Assembly: GCA_016188625.1 (NCBI GenBank)
Contig: JACPHL010000324.1
Span: 1 to 8,094 of the forward strand
Length of the DNA: 8,094 nucleotides
Direction: 5' to 3'
DNA from: Candidatus Rokuibacteriota bacterium
Lineage (GTDB): Bacteria; Methylomirabilota; Methylomirabilia; Rokubacteriales; JACPHL01
The translations under genes and the position numbers were made by a program. Shown piece after piece: positions 1,208-5,830 of this stretch (position 1 is the first letter of the stretch; the number at the start of each line of letters is the position of its first letter). The notes beneath the pieces were generated by a model. That model was not told the origin of the DNA, did not search any database, and was given only the letters and a program-made list of their open reading frames with translations.

Positions 1208-1213
1208 GTGAGC

Positions 1214-1429
1214 ATGGCAGTGGAGAAGACTATCGCGTCGTCCAGCCTGGTGGAAGTGGTGGACCGGATCCTGGACAAGGGCGTGGTCGTCGATGCCTGG
1301 GTTCGGTTCTCGCTGGTGGGGATCGAGCTGCTGGCCATCGAGGCCAGGGTCGTGGTGGCCTCCGTCGAGACGTACCTGAAGTACGCCGAGGCCATCGGCC
1401 TGACCGCCACGGCGGCCGCGCCGGCGTAA
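1214..1429 (+). CDS. gvpA: Gas vesicle major structural protein GvpA
   Basis: GvpA is the small hydrophobic protein that polymerises into the ribs of the gas vesicle wall. The 71-residue product begins [20 protein letters not shown] and contains the family hallmarks: [15 protein letters not shown] (17-31), [19 protein letters not shown] (33-51) and [13 protein letters not shown] (52-64), with a short Ala-rich tail. Length is typical of GvpA (about 70-76 residues), and it lacks the longer C-terminal extension of GvpJ/M/S types. The start at 1214 was chosen from the strong Shine-Dalgarno at 1197-1207. It is the first gene after the candidate sigma-54 promoter and is followed by a 132-nt gap, unlike the tightly packed genes downstream. 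This would allow a separate abundant gvpA transcript. Only one gvpA copy is present in the window. Confidence 0.98.
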
Positions 1430-1561: not shown

Positions 1562-1960
1562 ATGGCATCCAGGAGAAGGGTCAAGATGGCTTTCCGCGTT
1601 GAGGACTCGGGAGGAGCGATGGGGCTGGCGAAGTCGATGCGCAATCTGACCCAGGAGATCGCGCAGGGCTTCGACACCCGCGTGGCAGGGCTGGCGGCCC
1701 TGAGGCACGAGACCGCGACCCGGCTCAAAGGCTTCCGGCGGGAGATGGCCGGCTTCCGGCGCGAGTTCAGGCGCAAGGCGGCGGCGTTCCGGCAGCTCCT
1801 CCAGATGGGCCGGGAGGCCCGTAGCCGGCAGGTCAGCGACATGCTGGCGGGATTCGACAGGATGCTCGCCGGCTTCCGGCAGGACAGTCAGGCCGCGGCC
1901 GGCCACTGGCGCAGCATGGCGGCCGAGCTGGCGAAGAGGCGCGCCAGCCCCGCCCGATGA
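1562..1960 (+). CDS. Helical repeat protein in the gvpC position (first of a paralogous pair)
   Basis: The 132-residue product is rich in Arg, Ala, Phe and Met, with no signal peptide or membrane segment, and is predicted to be almost entirely helical. It has Phe-containing repeats: GFRREMA (57-63), GFRREFR (64-70), AFRQLLQ (75-81), GFDRMLA (98-104) and GFRQDSQ (104-110). The DNA word ggcttccggc recurs in frame at 1730, 1751 and 1871. Residues 37-69 (FDTRV...FRR) and 85-99 (EARSRQVSDMLAGFD) match segments of the next gene's product. Position between gvpA and gvpN, plus Phe-bearing helical repeats, recall GvpC, the outer strengthening protein of cyanobacterial gas vesicles. Sequence identity to GvpC is not evident to me. 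The start is uncertain: 1562 has gggaggga (1551-1558), but ATG 1586 also has a good site (aggagaaggg, 1571-1580). Existence is secure, function inferred. Confidence 0.75.
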   Translation: MASRRRVKMAFRVEDSGGAMGLAKSMRNLTQEIAQGFDTRVAGLAALRHETATRLKGFRREMAGFRREFRRKAAAFRQLLQMGREARSRQVSDMLAGFDRMLAGFRQDSQAAAGHWRSMAAELAKRRASPAR

Positions 1961-1979
1961 GGGAAAGACGAGACCGCGC

Positions 1980-2576
1980 GTGACCACCGTTCGCCTTCCC
2001 GAGGAGATGGGGGCCCTGGTCCGGGAGGTCGTCGCCTCCTACGAGACCAGGGTCTGTTCGGTGGCGCAGATCGTCGAGGCCACCCACGCGATGCTGGAGA
2101 CCTTCCGTCGCCAGCATGACGCGGTGAGGACCCGGCTCAGGGAGACCCTGGCCCGGGCCGCCTCCCTCCGGAAGCGGGACTTCGATCTCATGATGCAGGC
2201 GCTCCTCGACGACCAGGAGGCCCGCGAGAGGGCGATCAAGCGCACGATGCGCGACTACCTGGCCGGGCAGCAGGCCCTGGCGGCCGCCCTGCGGGAGGCC
2301 CTCGCCGGACCGGACCGGATCGATGCCGTCAAGACGGTGCTCGGGACGATGGTCGCCCGGGGGACCGCGCGGGAGCGGCAGGTCAGGGACCTTCTGGCCG
2401 AGTACCGGAGGGGGCACGAGGAGCTGGCCCGGGGCCTGGGGGGGCTCCTGTCCAACGGGGGCTCCGTGGGGGTCAAAGAGCTCAAGGCCACGCTCAGGGT
2501 CCTCCGGTCCCGGTGCTGGGGCGGCGAGCGACCCGCGTTCGCCCAGGCGGCGGGGAGGGGACGGGGCGACGAATGA
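1980..2576 (+). CDS. Helical repeat protein in the gvpC position (second of a paralogous pair)
   Basis: The 198-residue product is helical and Arg/Ala/Leu-rich, with no signal peptide or membrane span. Its N-terminal segment YETRV...FRR (21-44) aligns without gaps to residues 37-60 of the preceding protein. ARERQVRDLLAEYRR (130-144) matches ARSRQVSDMLAGFDR there at 9 of 15 positions. A further related unit, EARERAIKRTMRDY (80-93), lies 49 residues earlier, so the protein looks like an enlarged version of its neighbour. GTG at 1980 is taken as start because it follows the previous stop by 19 nt. ATG at 2007 would remove nine residues and has no better ribosome site. The stop overlaps the next start (ATGA). 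It may be a GvpC-like shell-binding protein, a scaffold or an assembly factor. The product is not recognised as a named family. Confidence 0.72.
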   Translation: MTTVRLPEEMGALVREVVASYETRVCSVAQIVEATHAMLETFRRQHDAVRTRLRETLARAASLRKRDFDLMMQALLDDQEARERAIKRTMRDYLAGQQALAAALREALAGPDRIDAVKTVLGTMVARGTARERQVRDLLAEYRRGHEELARGLGGLLSNGGSVGVKELKATLRVLRSRCWGGERPAFAQAAGRGRGDE

Positions 2577-2761
2577 TGGACCGCTACTGGGAGAACGGCG
2601 AGTGGAAAGCCTGGTACATGGCGGTCGATACCCCGTTCGGGACCCTCACGCGCCTCGTGCCCGGCAGCCTGACCCGCAAGGGAGACGTCCGGCCGCCCGG
2701 GCGTGCGGAGGACTCGGAGGCGAAGCCGCCCGGGGAATCTGGGCTGAAGGAGAGACCATGA
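2573..2761 (+). CDS. Small unrecognised 62-residue protein
   Basis: The product begins MMDRYWENGEWKAWYMAVD, followed by TPFGTLTRLVPGSLTRKG and a polar, Pro/Gly/Glu-rich tail. The N-terminal third is aromatic (Tyr5, Trp6, Trp11, Trp14, Tyr15) and unlike a membrane helix. I do not recognise the family. Reality is supported by context: its ATG overlaps the previous stop (ATGA at 2573-2576), its TGA overlaps the gvpN start (ATGA at 2758-2761), and ggggagggg (2552-2560) is a good ribosome site. Removing it would leave a 181-nt hole in an otherwise tightly packed operon. A longer in-frame start at 2513 exists but would overlap the upstream gene by 64 nt and has an unlikely composition. It may be an accessory gas vesicle protein, but nothing in the sequence shows its role. 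Confidence 0.6.
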   Translation: MMDRYWENGEWKAWYMAVDTPFGTLTRLVPGSLTRKGDVRPPGRAEDSEAKPPGESGLKERP

Positions 2762-3672
2762 TCGAAGAGATGGCGACCGTCCTCGAGCCCGCCCCGATGC
2801 CGGACTTCGTGGAGACCAAGTACGTCCGGGCGCTGACCGACCGGGCCCTCGGCTACATCCAGGCCGGCTTCCCGATCCACTTCCGCGGGGGCTCCGGCAC
2901 GGGGAAGACCACCCTGGCCCTCCACGTGGCGAGCAAGCTGAAGCGCCCCGTGGTGATGATCCACGGGGACGAGGAGTTCACCACCTCGGACCTGGTCGGG
3001 GGGGCGCACGGCTACCACCTGCGGAAGATCGTGGACCGCTTCGTCTCCCGCGTCCTGAAGGTCGAGGAGGACATGACCAGGCGGTGGGTCGATAACCGGC
3101 TGACCATCGCGTGCAAGTACGGCTTCACCCTGATCTACGACGAGTTCACCCGCTCCCGCCCCGAGGCGAACAACATCCTGCTCTCCATCCTCCAGGAGCG
3201 GATGATGGACTTCCCCATCGGCCGCGGCGGCGACGACGGCTACCTGCGGGTCGATCCGAACTTCACGGCCATCTTCACCTCCAACCCGGAGGAGTACGCC
3301 GGGGTGCATCGGAGCCAGGACGCGCTGCGCGACCGGATGGTCACGATGGACCTCGACCACTTCGACGAGGAGACGGAGGTGGCGGTCGTCCAGGCCAAGT
3401 CCGGCCTCCCCCGGAAGGAGGCGGAGAAGATCGTCAAGGTCGTCAGGGCCCTCCGGGGGTCCGGCGCCTGCGAGTTCCCCCCCACCATCCGGGGCTCCAT
3501 CATGATCGCCAAATCGCTCCGGGTGTTGAACGGCCACATCCGGGGCTCGAGCCGCCTGTTCCAGCAGGTGTGCCAGGACATCCTGGCCTCGGAGACGAGC
3601 CGGGTGGGGAGCAAGCGCAATCAGGCCAGGGTCCGGGAGCTGGTGAGGAAGTTCGTCAGGCAGTACTGCTGA
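2758..3672 (+). CDS. gvpN: Gas vesicle protein GvpN, MoxR-like AAA+ ATPase
   Basis: GvpN is an AAA+ ATPase of the MoxR/NorQ type needed for gas vesicles to enlarge to normal size; it may load or remodel other Gvp proteins. The 304-residue product has Walker A GGSGTGKT (44-51), Walker B TLIYDEF (124-130, Asp128/Glu129), sensor I TSNPEEY (Asn176) and the arginine region RDRMVTMDL (191-199). The segments DFVETKYVRALTDRALGY near the N-terminus and FPIHFRG before the P-loop are typical of GvpN. The start at 2758 is chosen because AAGGAGAG (2747-2754) lies 3 nt before it and it overlaps the preceding stop as ATGA. The frame is open far upstream to 2323, but that extension shadows other genes. The length matches the family. 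Confidence 0.96.
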   Translation: MIEEMATVLEPAPMPDFVETKYVRALTDRALGYIQAGFPIHFRGGSGTGKTTLALHVASKLKRPVVMIHGDEEFTTSDLVGGAHGYHLRKIVDRFVSRVLKVEEDMTRRWVDNRLTIACKYGFTLIYDEFTRSRPEANNILLSILQERMMDFPIGRGGDDGYLRVDPNFTAIFTSNPEEYAGVHRSQDALRDRMVTMDLDHFDEETEVAVVQAKSGLPRKEAEKIVKVVRALRGSGACEFPPTIRGSIMIAKSLRVLNGHIRGSSRLFQQVCQDILASETSRVGSKRNQARVRELVRKFVRQYC

Positions 3673-3706
3673 CCGCGACCGGCGATCGCAGGAGGAGCCA
3701 CGCGCC

Positions 3707-4030
3707 ATGAAGGGGCTGACCGACATCCGAGGGCTCCGGGACGTCCGGGGCATGCCCACGACCGGCCGGCGGGCCATCCCCAGGACCGGGAGCTCCGCCT
3801 ATCTGGACCTCTACGTCCTGCAGCGGGAGCGGGAGCGGCTTCTGAAGGAGGCGGCCCTCCTGGCCAAGCGCAACCGGGCGATCCGGAAGCGCCTCTCGGA
3901 GATCGCGGCGCAGGTGGAGGCCCTGGGCTGGTGGTCCCGGTCGGAGCGCCCGGGCGACGGAGGCGGGAAGGCGCCGCCCGGCCGCCCGCCCATGGGAAAG
4001 AGGTGGAAGACGTTGCCCCTGAGGTACTGA
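3707..4030 (+). CDS. Small coiled-coil gas vesicle cluster protein (possibly GvpV-like)
   Basis: The 107-residue product has three parts. The N-terminus carries a short internal repeat, DIRGLRDVRG (6-15), then GMPTTGRRAIPRTGSSAYLD, a Thr/Ser/Gly-rich segment with a conserved look. A charged coiled coil follows (about 33-72: YVLQRERERLLKEAALLAKR and on). The tail is basic and Pro/Gly-rich. The ribosome site ggaggag (3691-3697) is well placed 9 nt before the ATG. The stop and next start overlap as TGATG. Small proteins with a PRTGS...LDLY-like segment and coiled coil accompany gvp genes in some bacteria, and cyanobacterial GvpV is a possible relative, but I cannot confirm this from memory. It may be an adaptor between the ATPase and the shell or GvpF/L proteins; this is inference. 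Confidence 0.75.
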   Translation: MKGLTDIRGLRDVRGMPTTGRRAIPRTGSSAYLDLYVLQRERERLLKEAALLAKRNRAIRKRLSEIAAQVEALGWWSRSERPGDGGGKAPPGRPPMGKRWKTLPLRY

Positions 4031-5076
4031 TGAAGGCCTTGCATCTCTACTGCGTCATCGGGGACGGAGAGGGGCCGGAGGCGCCCCTCATCGGCCTCGA
4101 TGGCCGCCGGGTCTTCGCCGTTCGGCATCGCGAGCTGGCCGCGCTCGTGAGCCTCGGCCCCGTCCGCGTCTACAAGGCCATGCGGCGCGAGGAGATCATG
4201 CCCCATCTCTTCGCCCACCAAGCGGTCGTCGAAGGGGCCATGGAGGGGCGGACGGTGGTCCCCGTGAAATTCGGGACCGTCGCCCGCGATGAGGCGGAGG
4301 TCCGGAGGATCCTGGAGAGGAGCCACCCCAGGCTCCGGGCCGCCCTGGCGGCGATGGAAGGGAAGATCGAGCTGGACGTGGTGGCCCAGTGGAGGGATCT
4401 GGAGTCGGTCTTCCGGCAGATCGCCGAGGAGCCCGAGTTCCGGAGACTGACGGCCTCCATCGCGGTCCGCTGCCCGGCGCCGGCCACGGAGGAGCGGATC
4501 AGGATCGGTCGGGCGGTCAAGGCGCGGCTGGACCGGGTGCGGGAGGAGCGGGCCGACGAGATCGTCGAGGCCCTCAGGCCCCTGGCCGAGGAGCTGTGCC
4601 CCCACGCCCTCCTGGACGACCGGATGATCCTCAATACGGCGTGCCTCGTGGAGCGGGCCCGGGAGCCAGGGGTCGGCGAGGCCCTGGAGCGGCTGAGCGA
4701 CCGGTACGGCGACTCGGTCGATTTCCGGTGCGTGGGGCCGCTCCCCCCGTACAGCTTCGGCACGGTGGAGGTCAGGACGTTCGAGCTGGAGACGATCGAG
4801 CGGGCGCGGCGCCTCCTGGACCTCGCGGAGGACGCCGGGTTGGCCGAGATCAGGGACGCGTACCGGCGGGTGGCCCGGCAGTGCCACCCGGACCATGCCG
4901 GCAGGCAGGCAGGCGAGGACGGCCGCGACGCCGTGGACTGGTTTGAGGCGGTGACCCGGGCCTACCGGCTCCTGACCGAGTACCGGCAGGTGGGCCCATC
5001 CTTCCGGGCGCGCGACGTCGAGGAGGCGGTGGCGGTGAGGCTCCTGCCGTCGGGCCCGGGCCGTGGCGGCGCGTGA
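4030..5076 (+). CDS. GvpF/GvpL-family protein fused to a C-terminal J-domain
   Basis: The 348-residue product begins MKALHLYCVIGDG, a GvpF/L start. It contains the family motifs VVPVKFGTV (76-84), DRMILNTACLVER (197-209) and CVGPLPPYSF (234-243). GvpF/L proteins are accessory assembly factors that contact GvpA; one solved GvpF sits at the gas-facing side. After residue 250 a second domain follows (about 258-320): ARRLLDLAEDAGLAEIRDAYRRVARQ, then the HPD tripeptide (286-288), then WFEAVTRAYRLLTEYR. This is the helix II-HPD-helix III layout of a DnaJ J-domain, which stimulates the ATPase of Hsp70/DnaK. The start at 4030 overlaps the previous stop. A longer start at 3931 would only extend into the upstream gene in another frame. 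It overlaps the next gene by 14 nt. Fusion is continuous in one frame, so not an assembly artefact by itself. Confidence 0.93.
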   Translation: MKALHLYCVIGDGEGPEAPLIGLDGRRVFAVRHRELAALVSLGPVRVYKAMRREEIMPHLFAHQAVVEGAMEGRTVVPVKFGTVARDEAEVRRILERSHPRLRAALAAMEGKIELDVVAQWRDLESVFRQIAEEPEFRRLTASIAVRCPAPATEERIRIGRAVKARLDRVREERADEIVEALRPLAEELCPHALLDDRMILNTACLVERAREPGVGEALERLSDRYGDSVDFRCVGPLPPYSFGTVEVRTFELETIERARRLLDLAEDAGLAEIRDAYRRVARQCHPDHAGRQAGEDGRDAVDWFEAVTRAYRLLTEYRQVGPSFRARDVEEAVAVRLLPSGPGRGGA

Positions 5077-5830
5077 GGAGGGGAAGTATCTGTACGGGAT
5101 CATCGAGGCGCGCGGGGGGCTGAACCTCGGGCCCGTCGGCCTGGGCGGCCAGGAGGTGGCGGTCATCGCGTACCGGGACCTCGGCGCGGTCATCAGCAAC
5201 GCCCCGCCGGGGACGTGCGCGATCGCCAAGGAGAACCTCCTGGCCCATGAGCGGGTACTGGAGCGGGTCATGGAGGAGCACGCGGTGCTCCCGGTCCGAT
5301 TCGGCACGGTGGCGGCCAACGCCGAGGAGATCCGGTGGATCTTGGAGCGGGGATACCGAGAGCTGAAGCACCTCCTGCGCGACATGGACGGCAAGGTCGA
5401 GCTGGGGGTGAAGGCGCTGTGGCGAGACATGGACCACATCTTCCGGGAGGTCGCGGAAGAGAACGAGGAGATCAGGCGCCTGAGGGCGGGGATCGCCGGG
5501 CGGCCGTCCCGCCTGACACACGTCCAACGGATCGCCATCGGGCAGATGGTCCAGGCCGCCCTCGAGGCCAAGAAGGAGCGGGAGGGGGAGGAGCTCCTGC
5601 GGGACCTCCGGCGACTGGCCGTCGATCACCGGGTCCACCGGACAATCGGGGACCGGATGCTGCTCAACGCGGTCTTCCTCGTGGACCGGGACCGGGAGGG
5701 GGAGTTCGACGACCTGATGGAGCGGCTGGAGCACCGGCACCGGGAGCGGCTGAAGTTCGTGTACGTGGGGCCGGCGCCGCCCTACAACTTCGTCGATCTG
5801 GCCCTCTCCCCGCGGGAGCGGGCCCGATGA
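5063..5830 (+). CDS. Gas vesicle protein of the GvpF/GvpL family (second copy)
   Basis: This is a 255-residue GvpF/L-family accessory protein for vesicle nucleation and assembly. Seen in order are EGKYLYGII (6-14), ENLLAHERVLERVMEEHAV (57-75), LPVRFGTV (76-83), GDRMLLNAVFLVDRDREGEF (196-215) and YVGPAPPYNFVDL (234-246). Length is normal for the family. The start is GTG 5063, overlapping the end of the J-domain fusion gene by 14 nt. No better in-frame start precedes KYLYGII, and translation is probably coupled. Unlike the first copy, it has no J-domain and ends soon after the PPYNF motif. GvpF and GvpL cannot be told apart reliably by eye, so no symbol is given. Confidence 0.95.
   Translation: MAAREEGKYLYGIIEARGGLNLGPVGLGGQEVAVIAYRDLGAVISNAPPGTCAIAKENLLAHERVLERVMEEHAVLPVRFGTVAANAEEIRWILERGYRELKHLLRDMDGKVELGVKALWRDMDHIFREVAEENEEIRRLRAGIAGRPSRLTHVQRIAIGQMVQAALEAKKEREGEELLRDLRRLAVDHRVHRTIGDRMLLNAVFLVDRDREGEFDDLMERLEHRHRERLKFVYVGPAPPYNFVDLALSPRERAR

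Follow-up and report, generated by a model that had tools for sequence, protein, structure and literature searches.

In cyanobacteria, GvpC wraps around the gas-vesicle wall and makes it stiffer. The protein is best known from cyanobacteria and haloarchaea, affects the pressure that a gas vesicle withstands, and is one of the chief handles for engineering acoustic reporters. Each 33-residue repeat of Anabaena GvpC covers four GvpA subunits on helix alpha-2, and a docking model places GvpA residues Glu52 and Glu59 in contact with GvpC (PMC9994262; PMC10185304), with the V51–V61 region of GvpA used as the docking surface (PMC9994262). Haloarchaeal GvpC is an external protein with helical repeats of 32–39 residues (PMC9501494), and GvpC of Serratia sp. 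ATCC 39006 strengthens vesicles, with a decrease from 0.433 to 0.144 MPa upon deletion (PMC4982088). Several gvpC length variants are described in Planktothrix, a situation different from the diverged pair considered here (PMC5259702). Transcription of a gvp cluster in Ca. Methylomirabilis limnetica is cited in a review whose gene list comprises gvpA, L/F, N and K and does not include gvpC (PMC11008690).

Layout of the gas-vesicle locus

The window (the whole 8,094-base stretch analyzed here) is a complete contig of a draft Methylomirabilota genome. Reading 5′ to 3′, it encodes an NtrC-like regulator, gvpA, two ORFs that we term P1 and P2, a short ORF, gvpN and a 107-residue coiled protein, followed by three gvpF/L genes (the first a DnaJ-domain fusion), gvpG, a zinc-ribbon-like ORF (assigned by eye), a second gvpA-type gene and an Hsp20 gene. 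ORF calls and family matches placed P1 and P2 where the original prediction had located them, between gvpA and gvpN. The features of interest are as follows.

1208–1429, plus strand: gvpA (NCBIfam GvpA, 133 bits); rib protein and proposed binding partner of P1
1562–1960, plus strand: P1; ORF of 132 aa, arginine-rich, predicted single helix; P1-type (GvpC-related) family
1980–2576, plus strand: P2; ORF of 198 aa, helical paralogue; P2-type family
2758–3672, plus strand: gvpN (NCBIfam GvpN TIGR02640, 334 bits, above cut-off); downstream anchor of the slot
3707–4030, plus strand: conserved coiled protein of 107 aa, directly after gvpN; homologues so placed in most surveyed clusters

The 107-residue protein had no above-threshold match in Pfam, NCBIfam or PHROGs, and its position may correspond to the gvpV slot of Serratia. 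The short ORF upstream of gvpN (2573–2761, 62 aa) overlaps the P2 stop codon (ATGA), and a homologue was not found in the surveyed loci. The first of the gvpF/L genes (4021–5076) encodes a GvpF/L protein with a C-terminal DnaJ domain (GvpL_GvpF, 207 bits; DnaJ, 36.6 bits, residues 265–320); long GvpF/L proteins related to it are present in many surveyed clusters. No sigma-54 site was found within the window (strict pattern, 2 mismatches).

Paralogy of P1 and P2 and their relation to GvpC

The original prediction drew attention to motifs shared by P1 and P2, and its motif coordinates and counts were all correct on rechecking. The sequence FDTRV begins at residue 37 of P1 and YETRV at residue 21 of P2, and an ungapped alignment of P1 residues 37–69 with P2 residues 21–53 contains 10 identities in 33 positions. 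ARSRQVSDMLAGFDR at P1 residue 86 is identical to ARERQVRDLLAEYRR at P2 residue 130 at 9 of 15 positions, and a third related unit is found in P2, 49 residues upstream of ARERQVRDLLAEYRR. The 10/33 match alone cannot show a relationship, because shuffled sequences give as much: the best ungapped 33-residue window between the two proteins contains 11 identities, as compared to a mean of 10.0 and a maximum of 12 for 40 shuffled pairs. Raw identity was rejected as proof of kinship for that reason.

Gapped BLASTP gave a significant match between the two proteins (E 6e-6 over 60 aa), and a comparison of the P1-type and P2-type family profiles was decisive (hhalign, 99.4–99.5%, E 6e-21 to 3e-22). Reversal of either alignment reduced the hhalign score from 148 to about 41, a value similar to that of each family against its own reverse (38–46). 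The P1 profile scored window P2 at 58.8 bits (at most 29.8 bits in 500 pattern-preserving shuffles), and the P2 profile scored window P1 at 25.0 bits (at most 16.8 bits in such shuffles). The profile–profile alignment proposed earlier as a check on the pair thus upholds their paralogy, with reversed controls far weaker; by sequence comparison, P1 and P2 are true paralogues, sister helical proteins.

Loss of the shared motifs in homologs from related clusters had been named as grounds against the original prediction; they are instead retained. The [FY][DE]xR motif is conserved in both families: its arginine is conserved in 98% of 64 P1-type proteins, and the S, Y, E and R positions of SYExR are conserved at 86, 83, 80 and 78%, respectively, in 46 P2-type proteins, among which L53, R64 and D67 are invariant. 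In a tree of 83 P1-type proteins, 57 P2-type proteins and Nostoc GvpC, all P2-type proteins form one clade (support 0.98) with GvpC outside of it, and the two families separate without exception; because the classes had been assigned by profile score, this tree is a consistency check and not independent proof. The N-terminal tail of P1 (residues 1–19) is basic and resembles that of its Methylomirabilota orthologues, and many other P1-type members begin at an MGxAxxM motif located at residue 20 of P1.

The annotated GvpC proteins of Nostoc sphaeroides and Halobacterium were taken from plasmid records and compared with the two families. The P1-type HMM matched Nostoc GvpC with an E value of 5.5e-14 (50.8 bits) across GvpC residues 1 to 142, in an alignment that starts at the GvpC N terminus and near that of the family. 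The same HMM gave an E value of 2.5 with reversed GvpC, and 500 shuffles of GvpC that preserved hydrophobicity class scored a mean of 1.4 and a maximum of 19.8 bits. Alignment by hhalign gave 94.5–94.8% at an identity of about 9% (0.4% when reversed), and, with the search tool's own alignment, GvpC was the only match of the P1-type profile in the Nostoc plasmid record (2.4e-17). Similarity scores of amphipathic helices are inflated, as seen for a family member that gave 31.5 bits after reversal; the best match of the P1-type profile among 177,635 PDB sequences was an apolipoprotein at 28.7 bits.

The P2-type family displayed no direct match to Nostoc GvpC (2.8 bits; hhalign, 0.9%) and is linked to GvpC only via P1. 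No match to PF01304 was found in the window's genome at E values up to 10, and TIGR02641 did not match either window protein; weak matches to the latter model were observed for 5/64 P1-type proteins (best E 0.02, with the one listed score being 13.2 bits versus a cut-off of 18.8). Searches of Pfam, NCBIfam and PHROGs left P1 and P2 without a family. The P1-type profile did not match the published Anabaena repeat consensus arranged in tandem, a sequence without the N terminus (E 3.1), or Halobacterium GvpC (8.4 bits versus a shuffle maximum of 19.9).

The proposal of a GvpC-like pair accordingly stands for the P1-type family, on its profile similarity to Nostoc GvpC, and does not stand for P2 by direct comparison, while curated GvpC models recognize neither. 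That P1 is GvpC-like is well supported at the level of sequence; P2 would be GvpC-like through its kinship with P1, and we hypothesize that the two might form a two-component coat.

Like P1 and P2, cyanobacterial GvpC (PF01304/TIGR02641; Anabaena and Nostoc) is encoded between gvpA and gvpN and is an amphipathic alpha-helix with a stripe pitch near 3.6; a 33-residue lag is frequent in P1-type proteins. The Nostoc plasmid cluster contains one such gene, whereas clusters of the window type contain two diverged paralogues; cyanobacterial GvpC is built of uniform 33-residue repeats, whereas the spacing in P2 is 49–51 residues; and the P1-type proteins, unlike cyanobacterial GvpC, carry a conserved C-terminal Trp motif and Arg40. 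Haloarchaeal GvpC occupies the same slot but has a stripe pitch of 3.49 (versus 3.62) and is acidic, with a C-terminal domain. In Serratia, gvpC is a single gene that we take, from the published map, to lie between gvpA1 and gvpN and thus in the slot of P1 and P2; the likeness here is one of gene position.

A further, weak resemblance in sequence and fold was observed to apolipoproteins A-I, A-IV and E, whose surface-binding amphipathic helices can be bundled or extended. Weak apolipoprotein matches were obtained for 27/64 P1-type members (best E 1.2e-8). The PF01442 scores listed for individual P1-type proteins were 14–32 bits against a curated cut-off of 90, and this model did not match window P1 or P2. 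This resemblance is explained by general helix character and falls below cut-off in the proteins examined, and we set aside apolipoprotein, ferritin, BAR and similar matches on those grounds. Foldseek returned no match at an E value below 0.001, and VIA-align Z values of 8–10 are uninformative for helical bundles.

Recurrence of the pair among gvpN loci

A reference-genome collection was scanned with a GvpN alignment and the best 80 loci, from many phyla, were kept; because they were chosen by similarity to the window's GvpN, the survey is not a census. The gvpA–gvpN interval of each locus was read and its ORFs sorted by two iterated profiles, yielding 91 P1-type and 66 P2-type proteins (window and Methylomirabilota loci included). 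A P1- and/or P2-type gene is present in the slot in 75 of the 80 loci (74 from the first sorting, plus L103, in which a P1-type ORF was found later at 5.7e-36), and both are present in 60. The slot is missing from four loci (L057, L072, L081 and L084) because gvpN lies within about 360 bases of the contig start; the fifth, L114, contains in the gvpC slot a 649-aa ORF (3216–5165) without similarity to P1 or P2. The survey of other gvp clusters that had been suggested earlier thus finds the pair at the same locus in many phyla.

P2-P1 is the commonest arrangement (48 loci), followed by P1 alone (17, some truncated), P1-P2 (8) and P2-P1-P1 (7); two of the loci, L037 and L048, are very probably one contig. 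The P1-P2 order of the window is limited to a few related clusters whose GvpN proteins resemble each other closely; titles within this group include Nitrospirae, Deltaproteobacteria and Omnitrophota. Among the surveyed loci, P2 was not found in Chloroflexi or in the other Methylomirabilota cluster type, both of which keep P1. Of 95 Methylomirabilota genomes, 9 have a strong gvpN match, and in 8 of these the P1-type profile matched at gvp loci; weak matches (3e-8 to 3e-4) occurred in 4 of the remaining 86. P1-like ORFs annotated as hypothetical also occupy the slot on Pseudomonadota plasmids (Methylocella, 5.8e-8; a longer Methylosinus frame, 1.4e-8).

Several additional features of these clusters were noted. 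The second Methylomirabilota gvp cluster type (L041, L042, L043 and L045) contains a short P1-type gene without P2, which in L043 and L045 is followed by a shorter duplicated copy. Small cysteine-rich proteins with CxxCxGxG-type motifs (DnaJ zinc-finger-like) adjoin gvpN in other Methylomirabilota gas-vesicle clusters (L041:2041–2424 and L039:9126–9593), and two gvpN-like genes are found a few kilobases apart in L072, L080, L081, L083 and L086. P1-type proteins encoded at L124:4114–5322, L105:4670–5851, L082:5303–5980 and L078:1566–2231 have in common a C-terminal domain of about 60 residues; this domain, found in Bacteroidota, Chlorobi and Chloroflexi, follows the coat-like helix and appears winged-helix-like by eye.

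Helix character and possible roles on the vesicle

In both families the hydrophobic stripe recurs at a median of 3.62 residues (interquartile ranges 3.61–3.64 and 3.62–3.63) with almost no power at 3.5, so both look like straight amphipathic helices and not heptad coiled coils; the period for Nostoc GvpC is 3.66. A generic coiled coil was rejected for P1 and P2 on the basis of this pitch. Self-similarity was observed at lags of 18, 40, 33, 58, 47 and 65 residues in P1-type proteins and 51, 18, 58 and 33 in P2-type proteins, all of which fit the helical pitch, so that only the particular choice among lags hints at repeats. The best lag in P1-type proteins is most often 33 (17/81), as in GvpC. 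In window P1 a 33-residue repeat is not evident (best lag 40), and window P2 has a best lag of 49 (51 being typical of its family). An interpretation of repeat lengths as multiples of the GvpA spacing (33 and 51 residues as four and six subunits) was dropped, as a lag of 40 does not fit it and helical pitch limits the available lags.

AlphaFold2 predicted P1 to be a single 110-residue helix (residues 19–128, pLDDT about 98) and P2 to comprise helices at residues 6–59, 65–109, 113–158 and 165–180 (pLDDT 89, pTM 0.79). A single extended amphipathic helix is therefore predicted for P1 and not for P2 as modeled; the original reading holds in its paralogy and its GvpC connection, with the limit that P2 is predicted as several long helices and not as a single rod. 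Across the predicted turns of P2 the stripe stays almost in phase (shifts of −13 and −11 degrees at the fitted period), which would also suit an extended form, although the agreement is weak evidence, the period having been fitted to these very data.

The genes, their paralogy, the conservation of the slot, the P1–GvpC profile similarity, the stripe pitch and the predicted folds, all of them shown computationally, lead us to favor, as probable, an anciently duplicated GvpC-related pair, in which P1 would be a rib-clamping helix of GvpC type and P2 a paralogous second helical component. The window GvpA matches Nostoc GvpA at 10 of 11 positions in the stretch corresponding to Anabaena V51–V61; since this docking stretch is almost unchanged, it is straightforward to infer that P1 would lie along the ribs as GvpC does. 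The P1 helix of about 110 residues would span about 165 Å at 1.5 Å per residue, or about 13 GvpA subunits at 12.7 Å, and would most likely run along a GvpA rib with its hydrophobic and aromatic stripe against the exposed helix alpha-2 of GvpA and its arginines (net charge +17) opposite the conserved glutamates of alpha-2. Clamped in this way, adjacent GvpA subunits would be expected to withstand a higher collapse pressure. P2, having the same stripe pitch, is probably also on the vesicle surface, and could act either as a longer, opened-out rod with 49–51-residue units or as a bundle of helices with a part in spacing, loading or cross-linking P1. Surface binding, vesicle strengthening and the entire role of P2 would follow from this model.

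Alternatively, P1 alone might be the coat and P2 an assembly factor, either a chaperone or loading partner of helical-bundle form, by which P1 or GvpA would be kept in solution, or a link between P1 and the GvpN machinery. The several long helices predicted for P2 at a pTM of 0.79, its lack of a direct GvpC match and its absence from the Chloroflexi and Methylomirabilota clusters that retain P1 all suit such a role, but P2 has the stripe pitch of P1, roughly in phase across its predicted turns, and an N-terminal region in common with it; we regard this as somewhat unlikely, yet the strongest competitor. Less probable is convergence, by which a separate helical family would have arrived at the same GvpA surface and a GvpC-like action without common descent. 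An identity of about 9% in repetitive, biased sequence, and a comparison that involved one cyanobacterial GvpC (Nostoc), with the Anabaena consensus tandem and haloarchaeal GvpC unmatched, are compatible with it; the failure of reversed and pattern-preserving controls to reproduce the match, its beginning at or near both N termini and the identical operon slot argue for descent.

It is rather doubtful that P1 and P2 instead serve to bundle or position vesicles, tethering them to one another or to some other cell structure, with an apolipoprotein-like coating that leaves the ribs unstiffened. The weak apolipoprotein resemblance of P1-type proteins and the lysine-rich or winged-helix-like C-terminal tails seen by eye in many of them point in that direction, against which P1 is far more similar to GvpC than to the apolipoproteins in the PDB, and window P1 has no such tail. 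Finally, weak matches to generic coiled-coil families might suggest ordinary coiled-coil genes located in the operon by chance, with no gas-vesicle role. This is highly improbable and already contradicted by conservation of the slot in 75/80 loci; moreover, the profile matches are mostly restricted to gvp loci and heptad periodicity is absent.

The literature searched did not describe a conserved pairing of diverged GvpC paralogues, an absence that is not in itself proof of novelty. We suggest tentatively, at somewhat less than even odds in our own judgment, that outside cyanobacteria and haloarchaea many gas-vesicle operons make a coat of two components, drawn from a pair of ancient GvpC-related paralogues that differ in repeat length, and that reinforcement of the GvpC type is far more widespread than annotated. 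If so, it would have escaped notice because the cyanobacterial 33-residue form is the only one that curated models recognize. Across many phyla the gvpC slot is occupied by a GvpC-related family, conserved as two genes, that those models miss; the pair makes the generality of GvpC-type stiffening, and the contribution of a second coat protein, directly testable, and offers new parts for tuning vesicle mechanics.
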